Shown here: in pieces, positions 6,521 through 14,366 of the stretch
Layout of the letters: every line of letters begins with the position of its first letter
Numbering within the stretch: position 1 is the stretch's first letter
NCBI GenBank assembly: GCA_020853395.1
Contig: JADYYY010000007.1
Span: forward strand, 62,001 to 126,000
DNA length: 64,000 nt
Direction of reading: 5' to 3'
Source: Acidobacteriota bacterium
GTDB taxonomy: Bacteria; Acidobacteriota; Vicinamibacteria; Vicinamibacterales; SCN-69-37
Program-made: the position numbers and the translations under genes
Notes under the pieces: model-generated
What the model saw: the letters and a program-made list of their open reading frames with translations, nothing else
What the model was told of the DNA's origin: nothing
Database searches by the model: none

Positions 6521-7267
6521 TCAGACGCGGGACGCGGCCGGTTGGGCGTCGGGCTTGACGGCAAGATACAGATAGACGATCCCGAACGTGAGCGGCTCGA
6601 CGCGGATGTTCGCGAAGCCCATCTCGCGGAGCATCGCGCCGAACGCCTGCCCCGACGGGAACTCGAGGACCGAGGCCGGCAGGTACGCGTACGCGTCCCC
6701 GTGCTTCGAGACGAGCCCGCCGATTCGCGGCAGCACGTGCGTGAAGTACCAGAGATACGCCTGGCGCAGGCCGGGCAACGCCGGCGCGCCGAACTCGAGG
6801 ATCGCGAGCCGTCCGCCTGGCCGCAGCACCCGGAAGAACTCGGCGCACGCCGCGCGCGGGTCGACCACGTTCCGGATGCCGAACGCCACCATGGCGACAT
6901 CCATGGATGCGTCCGGGAGCGGTACCTGCGTGGCATCGGCCCGTGCGACCTGCACGCGCGCCGCCAGGCCGGCGGCCCTGACCTTTCGCTGCGCGATGCC
7001 GAGCATCTCGCCCGAGAAGTCGATGCCGACGACGCCCGCCGCGCGTCCCGACGCCGAGGTCGCCGCCTCGATGGCGAGATCCGCCGTGCCCGTGCACATG
7101 TCCAGCACGCGCTCGTGTCCGGTCAGCGACAGCGCCCGTACCGCTCGCGCGCGCCACCGGCGATCGAGGCCGGCGCTGAGCAGGTGGTTGAGCGTGTCGT
7201 AGCGGCGGGCGATCGCGTCGAACATGCCCGCGATGCGCCCGGGATCTTTGGAGATCGAAACCGTCAT
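6521..7267 (-). CDS. menG: Demethylmenaquinone methyltransferase (MenG/UbiE)
   Basis: 248 residues from the ATG at 7267, which overlaps the mqnM stop (ATGA). The N-terminus has the UbiE pattern FDAIARRYDTLNHLLSAGLD; class I SAM-binding motif CTGTADLAIEA and the post-motif FGIRNV are visible. It methylates demethylmenaquinone in the last step of menaquinone synthesis. Being the last gene of a futalosine-pathway operon favours menaquinone rather than ubiquinone as its substrate. Confidence 0.93.
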   Translation of the reverse strand: MTVSISKDPGRIAGMFDAIARRYDTLNHLLSAGLDRRWRARAVRALSLTGHERVLDMCTGTADLAIEAATSASGRAAGVVGIDFSGEMLGIAQRKVRAAGLAARVQVARADATQVPLPDASMDVAMVAFGIRNVVDPRAACAEFFRVLRPGGRLAILEFGAPALPGLRQAYLWYFTHVLPRIGGLVSKHGDAYAYLPASVLEFPSGQAFGAMLREMGFANIRVEPLTFGIVYLYLAVKPDAQPAASRV

Positions 7268-7899
7268 TCGCCCTTCCACGCAGGGAAGAGCCGCTGGTCG
7301 AAGCCCAGCGCGTTCAGGATCTTGCCCGCGATGAAGTCCGCGAGGTCGTCGATCGTCTTCGGCCGCTGGTAGAAGGCGGGCATCGCCGGCAGCACCATCG
7401 CGCCCGCCTCGGCGCACGCGACCATGTTGCGCAGCGCGGGCAGGCTCATGGGCGTTTCGCGCGGTACGACCACGAGCCGCCGCTGCTCCTTGAGCATGAC
7501 ATCCGCCGCGCGCTCGATGAGGCTGCGCGACAGCCCCTGCGCCACGGCGGCGAGCGTCTTCATCGAGCACGGCACGATGACCATGCTCTCGCAGCGGTGG
7601 CTTCCGCTCGCCAGCGAGGCACCGAGATCACGGTTGCCGAGCAAGCGAAAGCTGCCGCGCGCCACACCATCGCCGTACTTGGCCGCGAGCAACTCGGGCA
7701 GCCGTTCGACCTTCGCGTCCGGCCCGAGCTCGTCCATGAGCAGCCGGCGTCCGTAGTCGCTGAACACGATGTCGAGCTCGCAGCCCAGCTCGAGGAGGGC
7801 CGCGATGGTGCGCACGGCGTAGATCGCGCCGCTCGCGCCGGTGACGCCGACGGCCACGCGCCTGGCGCTCGCGCCCGCCGGCTCCGTTCGGGCGCTCAC
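7264..7899 (-). CDS. mqnM: UbiX-family flavin prenyltransferase (MqnM role)
   Basis: 211 residues from the GTG at 7899, which overlaps the stop of the UbiA-like gene (GTGA). The N-terminal VGVTGASGAIYA and the VVVPRETPMS segment are UbiX signatures. UbiX makes prenylated FMN from FMN and dimethylallyl phosphate; the cofactor is then used by a UbiD decarboxylase. Its partner is the UbiD-like gene at 12892-14355 of the same operon. In futalosine-pathway organisms this UbiX paralogue is called MqnM. The role follows from the neighbours; the family call is certain. Confidence 0.9.
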   Translation of the reverse strand: MSARTEPAGASARRVAVGVTGASGAIYAVRTIAALLELGCELDIVFSDYGRRLLMDELGPDAKVERLPELLAAKYGDGVARGSFRLLGNRDLGASLASGSHRCESMVIVPCSMKTLAAVAQGLSRSLIERAADVMLKEQRRLVVVPRETPMSLPALRNMVACAEAGAMVLPAMPAFYQRPKTIDDLADFIAGKILNALGFDQRLFPAWKGE

Positions 7900-8750
7900 G
7901 ACGTGAGCACGTCCGCGCACGTCGCGACGAAATACAGCACGCCGACCCACGCGTTCAGGTCGAACGCGCGCTTGACCTGCGACAGGTCGGCCGCGCTCAC
8001 GAGCGATTGCTCGTACACGAGCAGCGCCGCCACCATGGCGAGGCCGGCCGCGTAGACCGGGCCGAGCCCGGCCAGCCGTCCGACCACGGCCAGCGCCAGC
8101 ACCGTGACGACGTGCAGGCCGCGGGAGATCCAGATTGCCCGGCGGACGCCGAACGTCACCGGGATCGACCGGAGCCCCTCACGCCGATCGAACTCGAGAT
8201 CCTGGCACGCGTAGAGCACGTCGAATCCCGCCACCCACGAGCCGATCGCGAGGCCGAGCACCCAGGGCTCCGGACGCAGCGGCCCGCCCGCGGCAATCCA
8301 GCCGCCCACCGGCGCGACCGCCATCGCCAGCCCGAGGAAGAGCTGCGTGTACGTCGTCACGCGCTTCGCGAGCGAGTACCAGAAGACGATCGCGAGCGCC
8401 AGCGGCGACAGGGCGAGGCACACCGGGCCGAGCGGGACGGTGGCGGCCACGAACACCGCCGACGACGCGATCACGAAGAGCGCGGCCTCGCGGCGTGACA
8501 TCGCGCCGCGAGGCAGCTCGCGCATCGCGGTGCGCGGGTTGCGCGCGTCGTACACGGCGTCCACGAGCCGGTTGAAGCCCATCGCCGCGCTCCGCGCCGC
8601 CACCATGCAGACGATGATCCACAGAAGCCGCATCGGATCGAGAGACACGAGACGGCCGGCGAGCAAGGCGCCCGTCAGCGCGAACGGCAGCGCGAACACC
8701 GAGTGGCTGAACCGGACGAACGACGCGTAGGTCTGGAGGCGCGCGAGCAT
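7896..8750 (-). CDS. mqnP: UbiA-family prenyltransferase (MqnP role)
   Basis: 284 residues with about eight hydrophobic helices. The first Asp-rich motif appears as NRLVDAVYDARNPRT and a second one as DLEFDRREGL. The family joins a polyprenyl diphosphate to an aromatic ring in the inner membrane. Within a futalosine operon the acceptor should be the 1,4-dihydroxy-6-naphthoate-derived ring (MqnP) rather than 4-hydroxybenzoate. The start ATG at 8750 follows the mqnX stop by one base. An upstream in-frame extension has no family homology. Confidence 0.88.
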   Translation of the reverse strand: MLARLQTYASFVRFSHSVFALPFALTGALLAGRLVSLDPMRLLWIIVCMVAARSAAMGFNRLVDAVYDARNPRTAMRELPRGAMSRREAALFVIASSAVFVAATVPLGPVCLALSPLALAIVFWYSLAKRVTTYTQLFLGLAMAVAPVGGWIAAGGPLRPEPWVLGLAIGSWVAGFDVLYACQDLEFDRREGLRSIPVTFGVRRAIWISRGLHVVTVLALAVVGRLAGLGPVYAAGLAMVAALLVYEQSLVSAADLSQVKRAFDLNAWVGVLYFVATCADVLTS

Positions 8751-8751
8751 G

Positions 8752-9960
8752 TCAGCCGCTGACGGGTCTGACGGCCGTGGCCGGCACGCCAGCGACCAGG
8801 TATTCTTCCACATCGGCCGTGCCGGGCGGAACCGCGACCGCCACGAACCGCGCCCGTTTCCCCGGCGCGATCGTGCCGTACGCGCGGCCGAAGCCGAGCG
8901 CCTCGGCGCCAATCCGCGTCGCGCTCTCGAGCAGCGATGCGGCCGACACATCGGGCGCAATGCGCCGGATCTCGGCAAGCTCGTCGAACAGGTTCAGCGT
9001 CGGCGCGGACGCGAGGCTGTCGGTGCCGATCGCCACGGGGACGCCGGCCGCGTAGAAGTGCGACAGCCGAGGAATTCCGGCCCCCACCCACTCGTTGCTC
9101 CGCGGGCAGGTCACGAGCACCGCTTCGGCCTCGCCCAGCCTGGCCAGGCAGTCGTCCGTGAGATGGACGCCGTGGACGGCCAGCATCCCGGGCGACAGGT
9201 ACCCGACGCGCTTCATGTACTCGACCGGATCGCAGCCCGGCGGCGTCCAGGCCGGGGTCCACGCGCCAAGCTCGCGGAGCAGACGACGGAAGGGCCCGGT
9301 GCCGCTCCGCAGGAACTCGATCTCCTCCGCCGACTCCGCGAGGTGCACCGACCGGGGCGTCGTCTGCGGCCAGCGACCGATCTCGGTGAAGAGCGCGGGA
9401 GCCACCGAGTACGGCGCGTGGGCCACGACGCTGAGGCGGATGTCGGGTGGCGGCTCGGCCTCGGCCGCGATGGCGCGCGACGAGGCGTCGCGCACCATCG
9501 CGGCCGGGTCCGCGGCGTCGAAGCCGATCAGCTCGTGGAACACGACGGCGTCGAATGCGGCCTCGCGCAGCACCGGCACGCTCGCGAGCGAATTCGAGAC
9601 GTCGCCGACGAGCACGGTACCGGTCGCCTGCATCTCGGCCACCGCCGCCTGCATGGCGGCGACGTTCGCCGGGCTCGCCGGCGGCACCGCCATGCGTTCA
9701 GCGAGCATCGCCCGAATCCAGGCCACCATGCTGTCGGCGGGCCGGACCCGTCCTGCCAGGCCGCTCAGCTCGAGATGGGTGTGAGCGTTGACGAGGCCGG
9801 GCAAGAGGGCCACGTCCCCGAGATCGTCGGCAGGGCCTGGAGCCGCGCCGCGCCCGACCTCGATCACCGTGCCGCTCCGGGTCGCGACCCAACCGCCGTC
9901 GAGCGGCGGGCCGTCAATCGGCAGGAGCCAGCGCGCGCGAAACACCCTCACGCCCGTCAT
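8752..9960 (-). CDS. mqnX: Aminodeoxyfutalosine deaminase-like amidohydrolase (MqnX)
   Basis: A 402-residue protein of the SAH/atrazine-type deaminase branch of amidohydrolases. Metal ligands are seen in VNAHTHLE (His60, His62), VHGVHL and the late GTDSLAS Asp; a CPRSNEWVGAG segment matches the family. MqnX deaminates 6-amino-6-deoxyfutalosine to futalosine. The assignment over other deaminases rests on its position between mqnC and the UbiA-like gene. The next enzyme, futalosine hydrolase MqnB, is not in this window. Confidence 0.85.
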   Translation of the reverse strand: MTGVRVFRARWLLPIDGPPLDGGWVATRSGTVIEVGRGAAPGPADDLGDVALLPGLVNAHTHLELSGLAGRVRPADSMVAWIRAMLAERMAVPPASPANVAAMQAAVAEMQATGTVLVGDVSNSLASVPVLREAAFDAVVFHELIGFDAADPAAMVRDASSRAIAAEAEPPPDIRLSVVAHAPYSVAPALFTEIGRWPQTTPRSVHLAESAEEIEFLRSGTGPFRRLLRELGAWTPAWTPPGCDPVEYMKRVGYLSPGMLAVHGVHLTDDCLARLGEAEAVLVTCPRSNEWVGAGIPRLSHFYAAGVPVAIGTDSLASAPTLNLFDELAEIRRIAPDVSAASLLESATRIGAEALGFGRAYGTIAPGKRARFVAVAVPPGTADVEEYLVAGVPATAVRPVSG

Positions 9961-9966
9961 GCGGGT

Positions 9967-11187
9967 TCACGACGGCGGCGCCGTCCGAAGACGTCTCGCC
10001 GCCAGGCTGCGGGCCTCGTAGCCGCGGAGGTCGTCGGCCTCGCCGCCCCGCCCATCTCCCCGCGCCACCGCCAGCTCGAGCATCCGCGGCACCTCGCGCG
10101 AGCGGAACATGGGATCGCCGAGCACCTCGTAGTGCATGTTGCGGCGCTTGGCGGTGAATCCGGCGTTCTCGATGTTGCGGACCACCTCGTGCTCGTCCAT
10201 GCAGTACGCCGCGCCGGCCGCGCGCACGACGTTCTCCTCGATCATCACGGAGCCCATGTCGTTGGCGCCGTAGGCGAGGCTGAGCTGCCCCACCTTCCCG
10301 CCCTGGGTGACCCAGGACGCCTGCAGGTTGTCGAAGTTGTCGAGCACGAGCCTCGCCAGCGCGAGCGTCCGGACGTACTCGACGGCCGTCGCTTCCGCGC
10401 CGCCGAGCTCGGTGTGCTGCGGCTGATAGCTCCAGGTGATGAACGCGGTGAAGCCGCCGGTCTCGTCCTGCAGCTCGCGAAGCCTGAACAGGTGCTCGAG
10501 CCGCTCCTCCATCGTCTCGACCGTGCCGTACATCATCGTCGCCGTCGTGCGCAGCCCGGCGCGGTGCGCGTGCCGCATGACGTCGAGCCACTCGTCGGCC
10601 GTGGCCTTGTTGTAGCAGTTGAGGAGCCGCCGCACGCGGTCGACGAGAACCTCGGCGCCGCCGCCCGGGACGCTGTCGAGACCCGCGCTCACCAACCGCT
10701 CGATCACGGCGGGCACCGGCAACTGCGACAGCCGCGCGAGGTGGATGATCTCGGGCGGCGACAGCGCGTGCAGGCGGAACGCGGGATACCGCTGCTTCAC
10801 CGCGCGGAAGAGATCGTCGTACCACTGCAGCGGGATGTCCGGGTTGTGCCCGCCCTGCAGCAACAACTGCTCGCCGCCGAGCGCGATCGTCTCGTCGATC
10901 TTGCGGAAGATCTCGTCGAAGCCGAGCGTGTAGCCCTCGCTCGACCCGACCGGGCGATAGAACGCGCAGAACCTGCAGCGCGCGACGCAGACGTTCGTGT
11001 AGTTGACGTTCCGGTCGATGATGTAGGTGACGACGCCCTCGGGATGCTTGAGGCGGCGGACGTCGTCGGCCAGCCGGCCGATGAGCTCAGTCGGCGCGTC
11101 GCGGTACAGCTCGAGCGCCTCGTCCCACGTGAGGCGCCGCTCCACCTCGAACCGCCGTGCGATGGCCTCGACCGACATGCGGTTCAT
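9967..11187 (-). CDS. mqnC: Cyclic dehypoxanthine futalosine synthase (MqnC)
   Basis: 406 residues from ATG 11187 (397 from the ATG at 11178). The radical-SAM motif CX3CX2C is intact as Cys67, Cys71, Cys74 (NVCVARCRFCAF). It also has LLQGGHNPD and the SVPGGGAE segment typical of MqnC/MqnE/CofH enzymes. MqnC cyclises dehypoxanthine futalosine in menaquinone synthesis. IDRNVNYTN before the cysteines separates it from MqnE. The start overlaps the mqnA stop (TAATG). A C-terminal tail of about 30 residues is Arg/Ala-rich and not obviously conserved. Confidence 0.94.
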   Translation of the reverse strand: MNRMSVEAIARRFEVERRLTWDEALELYRDAPTELIGRLADDVRRLKHPEGVVTYIIDRNVNYTNVCVARCRFCAFYRPVGSSEGYTLGFDEIFRKIDETIALGGEQLLLQGGHNPDIPLQWYDDLFRAVKQRYPAFRLHALSPPEIIHLARLSQLPVPAVIERLVSAGLDSVPGGGAEVLVDRVRRLLNCYNKATADEWLDVMRHAHRAGLRTTATMMYGTVETMEERLEHLFRLRELQDETGGFTAFITWSYQPQHTELGGAEATAVEYVRTLALARLVLDNFDNLQASWVTQGGKVGQLSLAYGANDMGSVMIEENVVRAAGAAYCMDEHEVVRNIENAGFTAKRRNMHYEVLGDPMFRSREVPRMLELAVARGDGRGGEADDLRGYEARSLAARRLRTAPPS

Positions 11188-11999
11188 TATCGCGCACCCG
11201 GCCCGGCGAAGAAGGAGAGGTCGGCCGCCGCACGAATCAGCCCGAGCGCCGCGGCTTCGGCGTAATAGGTCCGAAGACCGGCCAGGGCCCGCTCGTCCAG
11301 GTGGAACATGAGGTTCCGTTCGAGGTAGGCCTGCGCCAGCGGCACGTCCTCCGGATGCGAAGCGCAGTATTCCTTCGCGATGACGTGCGTGTGACGCATG
11401 CCCGCATCGGCGGCCCGTTGCAGGACCGGCACGACCGCGTGCACGTCGGGCGAGTCGGGGCCGGCCCAGAACGCGAAGACGAACGGCAGGCCCGTCATCG
11501 CGCGCCATGCCTCGCCGAGATCGATCTTCTCCGCGCCGAACGCCCGCTGATCGACGAAGAGCGCCGGGTCGCCGATGAGCAGCGCTGCGTCCGCGACCGC
11601 GAGCATCGCCGTCAGATCGGGCGCATGCGGTACGAACGCCGGTGCGATCCCGAAGGCGCGCGCACACAGGATCCGCAGGAGCACGGACGAGGTCCGCGAC
11701 GACGTGTCGAGCGCGATCGTGGCGATCGCGGGCACGGGCCGGCGCGTGAAGAGCGCCACGGAGGCGACCGGGCCGTCGGCGCCGATGCAGACGCCCGGCA
11801 CCACGCGGTCCGACGGGCGGTCGAGATACGCGATCGACGGAATCATCCCGAGATCGATCGCGCCCGCGGCGAGCAGCCGCGCGCAGTCGGCGGGCGAATC
11901 GAACCGCAGGGACACGGCGGCGGGCCGCGCGTCGAGCCCGTACACGAGCGGGCGGACGTTGAGGTAGTTGACCGCGCCGAGACGGACGGGCCGGCTCAC
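11187..11999 (-). CDS. mqnA: Chorismate dehydratase (MqnA)
   Basis: 270 residues from the GTG at 11999, overlapping the stop of the mqnE-like gene (GTGA). The opening VRLGAVNYLNVRPL and the IDLGMIPSIAYL, TSSVLLR and LLIGDPAL segments match MqnA. This periplasmic-binding-protein-like enzyme dehydrates chorismate to 3-[(1-carboxyvinyl)oxy]benzoate, the entry step of the futalosine route. The reading frame is open upstream, but homology begins here. Confidence 0.92.
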   Translation of the reverse strand: MSRPVRLGAVNYLNVRPLVYGLDARPAAVSLRFDSPADCARLLAAGAIDLGMIPSIAYLDRPSDRVVPGVCIGADGPVASVALFTRRPVPAIATIALDTSSRTSSVLLRILCARAFGIAPAFVPHAPDLTAMLAVADAALLIGDPALFVDQRAFGAEKIDLGEAWRAMTGLPFVFAFWAGPDSPDVHAVVPVLQRAADAGMRHTHVIAKEYCASHPEDVPLAQAYLERNLMFHLDERALAGLRTYYAEAAALGLIRAAADLSFFAGPGAR

Positions 12000-12895
12000 G
12001 GGCGGCGCTCGTATCGGCCGTCGCGCTCGACCGGCACGCCGCCCGCGGCCCGGATCTGTCGCGCGATCTCTTCCTTCGCCGACCGCCGCGGCCCCTGGTC
12101 CGGCGAGTCCACGGGATCGATCCCGTCGATGTCGTTCGCGCCGTACGCGATCGACACCTGCGCGAGCTTGGGGCCGTAGAGCAGCCAGTCGGCCTGGATG
12201 AACCGGATGTCGCGGCAGACGAGCGCCGCCACCGCCATCGTCCGCACATCGTCGTACCCCGTGGACGGGGCGTCGACGGGGTCGCGACGCGGCAGCGGTG
12301 CGAACGCCGCGACGCCCTGCACGTCCCGCTGGATGGCGTCGGCGGCGAAGACGACGTCGAGGCGATCGGCGCCGGACGCGCGATCGACGGTGAGCCGTCG
12401 CATGGCGAGGCCACCCTGCCGGAGCGCGCGGATCACGCCGACCGCCGTCGCGACGCTGGCGAGACGATCGACCGGACATTCGGCGACGGCCTCGAGTCCA
12501 GCCGCGCGAAGCCGTGCGGCCGACTCCGCGACGCCGCCGTAGTCTCCGCCGGCGAGGTCGAACAGATCGGCGGCCGAGAAGCCGGTGAGCGGGACGCCGC
12601 CGGCCAAGGCGGCGAGGGCCGAGACGCGTTCACACGCCTGCCGGAGCGACGTCGGGCGGCCGGCGATGCGCACTTCGCCGGCATGGCCGACCGACGGATC
12701 GGCACCGCCCTCCAGCGGCACGATCGCCACCCGTCCGTACGTCACGTCGAGCCCCGCACGACGGCGGCGCGCCGATTCGCCGAGCACGCCGACCCTGATG
12801 AGATCGAGCGAGCGCAGCACGCGTTCGGCGTCGGCGCGCGTCAGCGCCCCCCCCGCGGCGGCTTTCGCTTCGAGGTCGATGATCGTCTCGGTCAT
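11996..12895 (-). CDS. MqnE-like protein lacking the radical-SAM cysteines
   Basis: 299 residues, starting at ATG 12895 (overlaps the mqnL stop, ATGA) and ending in a GTGA overlap with mqnA. The N-terminus (LDLIRVGVLGESARRRRAGL) and especially the C-terminus (TGYDDVRTMAVAAL, YGPKLAQVSIAYGANDIDG, PVERDGRYER) align with aminofutalosine synthase MqnE. The stretch that should hold CX3CX2C reads VTYGRVAIVPLEGGADP: it has no cysteines, and the PGGGAE motif is also gone. It is shorter than MqnE (about 370 residues). Without a [4Fe-4S] cluster it cannot do MqnE chemistry, so it is a pseudoenzyme or a partner protein. The frame is open and tightly coupled on both sides, which argues against recent decay. 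Confidence 0.8.
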   Translation of the reverse strand: MTETIIDLEAKAAAGGALTRADAERVLRSLDLIRVGVLGESARRRRAGLDVTYGRVAIVPLEGGADPSVGHAGEVRIAGRPTSLRQACERVSALAALAGGVPLTGFSAADLFDLAGGDYGGVAESAARLRAAGLEAVAECPVDRLASVATAVGVIRALRQGGLAMRRLTVDRASGADRLDVVFAADAIQRDVQGVAAFAPLPRRDPVDAPSTGYDDVRTMAVAALVCRDIRFIQADWLLYGPKLAQVSIAYGANDIDGIDPVDSPDQGPRRSAKEEIARQIRAAGGVPVERDGRYERRP

Positions 12896-14355
12896 GTCCC
12901 TTGCGTCCTGCTGGTCCTGCCGATCGTGGCCCAGATGTCGTCGGCGCGGCGGCGGGCCTGCTCGCTCGTCACGAGGCGCTTCGGGAACTCGCGGGTGCCG
13001 CCCTCGGCCGGCAGCTTGCGCGTCGCGTCGATGCCCATCTTGCCGCCGTACGCCGGCGCGATCGCCGCGTCGTCGAGATCGTCGACGGGCCCGCGGGTGA
13101 TCTCGATGTCGCGCGACGGGTCCACGTGCGTGCCGGCAATCCACGTGACCTCGGCCTCGTCGTGCACGTTCACGTCCTTGTCGACGACGATGACGCACTT
13201 CGAGAACATGAGCTGGCCGAGCCCCCAGACGGCGCTCATGATCTTGCGCGCGTGCCCGGGATACCGCTTGTCGATCGAGATGATCACCAGGTTGTGGAAG
13301 ATGCCGGCGGCTGGAAAGTGCATGTCCACGATCTCGGGCAGCGTCTTGCGGATGAGCGGCAGGAAGATCCGCTCGCTCGCCTTGCCGAGGTAGTAGTCCT
13401 CCATCGGCGGCACGCCCACGACCGTCGAGACGTAGACCGGCTTCTTCCGCATCGTGAGACACGTCAGGTGGAACACTGGGAAGTCGTCGGCGAGCGAGTA
13501 CAGGCCGGTGTGGTCGCCGAACGGCCCCTCGCGGCGGCGCTCACCGGGCTCCACGTAGCCTTCGAGGACGATCTGCGACGTCGCCGGCACTTCCAGATCG
13601 ACCGTCCGGCACTTGACGAGCTCCACGCGGCGCTTGCTCAGCACGCCGGCGAGCATCAGCTCGTCGAGGCCTTCGGGCATCGGCGCCGTCGCCGAGTAGA
13701 TGAGGACGGGATCCGCGCCGAGCGCGACCGCGACCTCGAGACGACGGCCGAGACGCTCGGCGACGCGATGATGCTGCGCGCCGCCCTTGTGGCGCTGCCA
13801 GTGCATGCCGGTCGTGCGCCGATCGAACACCTGCATGCGGTAGGTGCCGATGTTGCGCATGCCGGTCTCGGGGTCGCGCGTGATGACGAGCGGCAGCGTG
13901 ATGAACGGGCCGCCGTCCTCCGGCCAGCACGTCAGGACCGGCAGCTCGTCGAGACCGCCGTCCATCTTCACGACCTCCTGGCACGGCGCGTCCTTGACGG
14001 TCTTCGGCATCAGGTCCGTGAGCCGCGTCACGAGCGGCATGAGCTTCAGCGCGTCCATGAAGCCGCGCGGCATCGGCGGGGTCGTCAGCTCCTCGATCTC
14101 CTTCGCCAGCTCGTCGAGGTGCGTCACGCCGAGCGCCAGGCAGATGCGCGACATCGAGCCGAAGAGATTCGTCGCCACGGGCATCGAGCCGCCCGCCGGC
14201 GTCTCGAACAGCAGCGCCGGTCCGCCACCCGGCGACTTCGAGGCGCGATCGGTGACGGCGGCGATCTCGAGGTGCGGGTCGACGGAAGGGCGGATGCGCG
14301 CCAACTCTCCGCGGCGCTCGATCTCGGCGATGAACGACGTGATGTCCTGGAACAT
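12892..14355 (-). CDS. mqnL: UbiD-family decarboxylase (MqnL role)
   Basis: 487 residues from ATG 14355. It has the UbiD segments IGTYRMQVFD, MHWQRHKGGAQHH, and EPGERRREGPFGDHTG, which holds the conserved catalytic Glu region. UbiD enzymes use prenylated FMN made by UbiX to (de)carboxylate aromatic acids. In a futalosine operon with mqnM and mqnP, the likely job is decarboxylating the dihydroxynaphthoate or its prenylated form (MqnL). It overlaps the mqnE-like gene by 4 bases and follows the Gfo/Idh gene by 11 bases. Confidence 0.9.
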   Translation of the reverse strand: MFQDITSFIAEIERRGELARIRPSVDPHLEIAAVTDRASKSPGGGPALLFETPAGGSMPVATNLFGSMSRICLALGVTHLDELAKEIEELTTPPMPRGFMDALKLMPLVTRLTDLMPKTVKDAPCQEVVKMDGGLDELPVLTCWPEDGGPFITLPLVITRDPETGMRNIGTYRMQVFDRRTTGMHWQRHKGGAQHHRVAERLGRRLEVAVALGADPVLIYSATAPMPEGLDELMLAGVLSKRRVELVKCRTVDLEVPATSQIVLEGYVEPGERRREGPFGDHTGLYSLADDFPVFHLTCLTMRKKPVYVSTVVGVPPMEDYYLGKASERIFLPLIRKTLPEIVDMHFPAAGIFHNLVIISIDKRYPGHARKIMSAVWGLGQLMFSKCVIVVDKDVNVHDEAEVTWIAGTHVDPSRDIEITRGPVDDLDDAAIAPAYGGKMGIDATRKLPAEGGTREFPKRLVTSEQARRRADDIWATIGRTSRTQGT

Positions 14356-14366
14356 GGGATTGAGTC

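Follow-up and report, generated by a model that had tools for sequence, protein, structure and literature searches.

In the futalosine pathway menaquinone (vitamin K2) is made by Mqn enzymes that are regarded as a fixed set; in other bacteria the pathway is discussed as an antibiotic target. Two members of this set, MqnE (aminofutalosine synthase, TIGR03700; PDB 6xi9 and 6xig) and MqnC (cyclic dehypoxanthinyl futalosine synthase, TIGR03699), belong to the same CofH family. As for the literature, a genomic study of the pathway proposed mqnZ and others (PMC4746308), mqnA, mqnC and mqnD have been counted in five Acidobacteria (PMC3914697), and quinone pathways have been surveyed (PMC13386864); the accessible portions of these three texts make no mention of an MqnE-like protein devoid of its cluster.

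Such a protein is encoded in the stretch of 64,000 nucleotides analysed here (the window; contig JADYYY010000007.1, positions 62,001 to 126,000), from an Acidobacteriota bacterium. It is named pMqnE in this work, and it is a real and conserved radical-SAM pseudoenzyme without an assigned function. No report of it, or of the second clusterless protein described below, was found in the literature searched.

The pMqnE gene and its product

pMqnE is encoded on the minus strand, at the coordinates that the sequence-only reading had given, and its gene is part of an operon whose members are as follows.

7264..7950, minus strand: ubiX-type flavin prenyltransferase (mqnM-like); open reading frame read from the sequence without a family scan, with orthologues at the same position; its true start is probably internal
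7896..8750, minus strand: ubiA-type prenyltransferase (mqnP-like), 284 aa; open reading frame read from the sequence without a family scan, with orthologues at the same position across the order
8752..9960, minus strand: mqnF-like amidohydrolase (aminofutalosine deaminase family); Amidohydro_1, best NCBIfam match NF006269 with 150 bits, below the cut-off of 320
9967..11187, minus strand: mqnC, intact radical SAM enzyme; TIGR03699 with 482 bits against a cut-off of 428, Radical_SAM and CofH_C
11187..11999, minus strand: mqnA, chorismate dehydratase family; PF02621, E 2.8e-50
11996..12895, minus strand: pMqnE, clusterless MqnE-like protein; 299 aa, 299 codons from ATG
12892..14358, minus strand: mqnL, UbiD-type menaquinone decarboxylase, upstream neighbour of pMqnE; TIGR03701 with 609 bits against a cut-off of 495.9, UbiD Pfam

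The junction letters agree with the overlaps of four bases that had been noted on both sides: the stop of mqnL overlaps the ATG of pMqnE (GGACATGACC), and the TGA of pMqnE overlaps the GTG of mqnA (CCCGTGAGCC); the mqnA/mqnC junction reads TAATG. The neighbouring MqnC, said to keep its cysteines, does so in the form CVARCRFC, and it passes TIGR03699.

Regarding its family, pMqnE matches TIGR03700 with E 5e-19 and 68.3 bits, far under the cut-off of 434.55 and over residues 176-296 only, and TIGR03699 with 50.8 bits, below the cut-off of 428.1; it passes the gathering cut-off of 27 for the Pfam domain CofH_C (PF19288) with 39.1 bits, and Radical_SAM (PF04055) gives no match up to E 1. Sequence HMMs thus recognise just the C-terminal third of the protein, that is, the CofH/MqnC C-terminal region. 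The proposal that both ends align with MqnE holds for the whole protein when profiles are compared with hhalign (E 1.5e-29 over 288 columns with MqnE, and E 1.2e-23 over 294 columns with MqnC) and when the predicted structure is used. Both motifs reported as lost, CX3CX2C and the SAM-binding PGGGAE, are indeed absent from the window copy; the former is missing from all 61 distinct orthologues as well, one of which matches a loose GGGAE/GGx[AG]E pattern, and a quarter of these 61 sequences have no cysteine at all. Because the Fe-S cluster motif is lacking, pMqnE is predicted to be unable to carry out the radical chemistry of MqnE, and aminofutalosine synthase activity is expected, from its sequence, to be absent.

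AlphaFold2, run with the family alignment, predicted a complete MqnE-like barrel (mean pLDDT 93.3, pTM 0.92); the nearest solved structure is MqnE from Pedobacter heparinus (PDB 6xig; Z 27.2, rmsd 3.0 over 293 residues), followed by a group of other radical SAM enzymes with Z 19-20. Compared with MqnE, pMqnE has in common the full-length fold, the profile homology, the CofH_C region and the slot before mqnA; the region of the cluster and of SAM is replaced, whereas the second half retains W237, Q246, D255, D257 and R291. As for MqnC, its QASWVTQGGKVGQ stretch is matched by Q234, W237, K243 and Q246 of pMqnE, which differs in having no cluster and in reading GADDID where MqnC has GANDMG; the intact MqnC is encoded two genes off.

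Among 26 diverse members of the pMqnE family 27 columns are invariant, and mean conservation is higher in the strands (2.86 bits) than in the loops (2.0-2.2) or helices (2.0). The invariant pairs E74/R76, Q234/D236 and D255/D257 have the alternate spacing expected for one face of a strand. Judging from secondary structure and residue spacing, these alternating polar residues of strands 2, 7 and 8 point to a barrel with a polar inside, and the conservation peak in the barrel strands suggests that a ligand pocket was kept; a bound ligand is therefore favoured over a bare scaffold.

Conservation across the order and the position of mqnE

A search of 60 relatives normally returned three matches per genome, namely pMqnE, MqnE and MqnC. 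Judged by E-value, pMqnE occurred in 52 of the 54 relatives with a gene of the MqnA/MqnD family (PF02621) and in none of the six without one; the two exceptions are a relative with a single PF02621 match whose assembly shows no mqnA cluster, and another with a partial mqnA match alone. When 396 genomes of the phylum were searched, family-level scores were limited to the order of the window, apparently the Vicinamibacterales, and elsewhere the matches were the weaker ones typical of MqnE and MqnC, plus a few proteins of 300 residues that are taken up below.

The suggestion that the gene is translated and selected, and that a radical-SAM pseudoenzyme is retained in a futalosine operon, could be followed across the order. 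The 61 distinct homologues contain no internal stop and are all clusterless, which rules out a local frameshift or assembly error, and close pairs give a pairwise dN/dS of 0.06-0.23, far below 1; purifying selection thus goes together with the lost catalytic motif. The gene order pMqnE, mqnA, mqnC, mqnF-like, ubiA and ubiX is kept in the 20 relatives examined, a few of them without the end genes; in one of the 20 (G028) BLAST missed mqnA, which is present by PF02621.

Two side observations concern these loci. In several genomes extra DNA of 1.2-3.3 kb splits the operon on one or the other side of mqnC, towards mqnA or towards the mqnF-like gene:

L199:5540-6748: operon-interrupting DNA
L201:5407-6663: operon-interrupting DNA
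L080:6163-7402: operon-interrupting DNA
L083:4039-7387: operon-interrupting DNA

In addition, the same complete cluster is found on contigs titled Alphaproteobacteria (L091) and Woeseiaceae (L100), which are probably mislabelled or misbinned assemblies and not cases of transfer.

An intact mqnE, sought elsewhere in the genome of the window, is present on contig C5 (L078:7046-12467), apart from the rest of the pathway, where its neighbours read as genes for a metal-chelate ABC transporter and superoxide dismutase; MqnD is encoded a few kb away. Its product has 371 aa, so that pMqnE is shorter by 72 residues, close to the 70 first estimated. All of the 20 relatives examined likewise have an intact MqnE elsewhere, 75-84% identical to that of the window genome. 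Since the genome has its own MqnE, MqnC, MqnA and MqnD, pMqnE is not needed for those steps, and the idea that it makes up for the loss of MqnD or MqnE is ruled out, both being present on contig C5.

Outside the order an intact mqnE lies directly before mqnA in a family of the same class (L085), in a further family within the phylum (L079) and in 26 of the 58 loci of other lineages that were scanned; pMqnE therefore occupies what appears to be the ancestral position of mqnE. In a tree of 71 sequences it forms a single clade with a long stem, which attaches on the MqnC side with a support of 77; union with the MqnE of the order is not rejected by the AU test (p 0.397). Some members score slightly higher with MqnC than with MqnE (L020). 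Synteny and most profile scores favour an origin from mqnE over one from another CofH-family paralogue, which makes it the most likely source, and pMqnE seems to be the former operonic mqnE, changed into an accessory protein without radical chemistry.

A second clusterless family in Acidobacteriota

Another clusterless protein, MqnC-like and about 300-315 aa long, occurs in an Acidobacteriota family of another class (f24; loci L167-L192), as in these examples:

L167:1501-2448, minus strand: f24 clusterless protein
L185:1501-2379, plus strand: f24 clusterless protein

It resembles pMqnE in its size, in keeping CofH_C, in the loss of both CX3CX2C and GGGAE, in its coexistence with an intact MqnC (at least 26 genomes, the majority from a single genus) and in being under purifying selection (dN/dS 0.04-0.2); it is modelled as a complete barrel (pLDDT 86.7) with Z 38 to MqnE. 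Unlike pMqnE, it lies outside the mqn operon and nests with the MqnC of its own family (support 100 for the joint clade and 97 for the clusterless group), to which its N-terminus is almost identical up to the deletion. Its gene also differs in usually following a VKOR gene (PF07884), found just upstream on the same strand in 22 of the 26 loci, mostly with a small unassigned protein between them; this adjacency may point to a connection with quinone redox chemistry.

A single origin of the two families is not rejected by the tree alone (p 0.456). Independent origins are likelier, and the two families are probably independent, since the f24 protein nests with the MqnC of its own family, is nearly identical to it at the N-terminus and is less widely spread than pMqnE.

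Possible roles of pMqnE

Our preferred reading, to which we give a probability of about one half, is that pMqnE serves the futalosine pathway as an accessory or substrate-handling subunit with a putative partner and a putative ligand. The intact mqnE elsewhere would have freed the original operonic copy to become pMqnE, which would retain the entire TIM barrel, its second half in particular (strands 6-8 together with the C-terminal part in which the match to MqnE persists); loss of the cluster loop and of the SAM-binding motif would have produced a non-catalytic member of the CofH/MqnE/MqnC family. The old substrate cavity would bind a pathway compound, either the 3-enolpyruvylbenzoate formed by MqnA or a nucleoside intermediate, and pMqnE would pass it to MqnA, MqnC and/or the remote MqnE, or stabilise a complex of these. 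From the data above we infer that pMqnE descends from mqnE, that its ligand is a pathway compound and that it enters a complex. Evolutionary rates of pMqnE co-vary with those of MqnA, MqnC and MqnF (partial r 0.29-0.42), whereas the correlation with the remote MqnE is not significant (0.15, p 0.10); such covariation among operon mates is weakly consistent with an operon-linked role and singles out no partner.

It is possible, though unlikely, that the barrel was instead rebuilt for a non-radical reaction such as the hydrolysis of (amino)futalosine. Invariant acidic and basic residues are available for this on the barrel strands (E74, R76, D236, D255 and D257), together with R270 and R271 after strand 8, and the window genome (G000) has no recognisable MqnB, with no match to TIGR03664; 29 of the 60 relatives likewise have none at E 0.001. 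However, all 12 relatives with a clear, above-cut-off MqnB also keep pMqnE, which is thus no stand-in for it there; since pMqnE is equally present alongside MqnB, its use as an MqnB replacement is unsupported. Moreover, the missing hydrolase could be an unrecognised enzyme or one of two phosphorylases, the only PNP_UDP_1 proteins of the window genome:

31580-32446 of the window, minus strand: MTA phosphorylase
L247:1492-2307, minus strand: purine-nucleoside phosphorylase

It should be noted that, with 29 of 60 relatives lacking a TIGR03664 match, the hydrolase step is without an explanation in much of the order.

The adjacency to mqnA, the distance of one gene from mqnC and the rate covariation with MqnA and MqnC would also fit a partner whose role is purely structural, binding no ligand itself and serving MqnC (or MqnA) as a dimerisation or docking scaffold. 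This seems rather unlikely, because conservation favours the barrel strands over the helices and a scaffold alone needs no invariant polar residues there; besides, among the 396 genomes no clear family member was found outside the order, where MqnC evidently works without it. A sensor or regulator would, by analogy with HisZ in histidine synthesis, bind a compound of the pathway and control its flux; the barrel predicted to be retained without its catalytic cluster and the long-term conservation in the operon would be compatible with it, but pMqnE has no additional regulatory domain, and we consider such a role very improbable. As for a decaying remnant or an assembly error, the lost catalytic motif and the fast evolution of the protein (mean distance 0.99, against 0.31 for MqnC and 0.27 for MqnE) could point that way, but the uninterrupted and constrained orthologues, the invariant residues and the overlapping start and stop codons leave it hardly credible. 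The idea of a remnant of a replaced enzyme therefore survives at most as a statement of ancestry, given the mqnE slot, and fails as one of decay.

Returning to the accessory or substrate-handling role, a conserved non-catalytic relative of MqnE would be an unrecognised component of the pathway, and reconstitution of the pathway would change if pMqnE channels or senses intermediates. The parallel f24 protein offers a natural replicate for how radical-SAM enzymes become pseudoenzymes. A tentative and rather doubtful generalisation is that in Acidobacteriota clusterless CofH-family proteins have had two or more origins, one in operonic MqnE and one in MqnC, and serve as carriers of futalosine intermediates or as non-radical enzymes on them; if true, the radical-SAM barrel would have been reused without radical chemistry inside one pathway.

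Further systems with which pMqnE can be compared are HisZ and the prozymes of trypanosomatids, catalytically dead paralogues that are kept in their own pathways as activating subunits. These have other folds and act in other pathways, and for pMqnE an activating role would be hypothetical.
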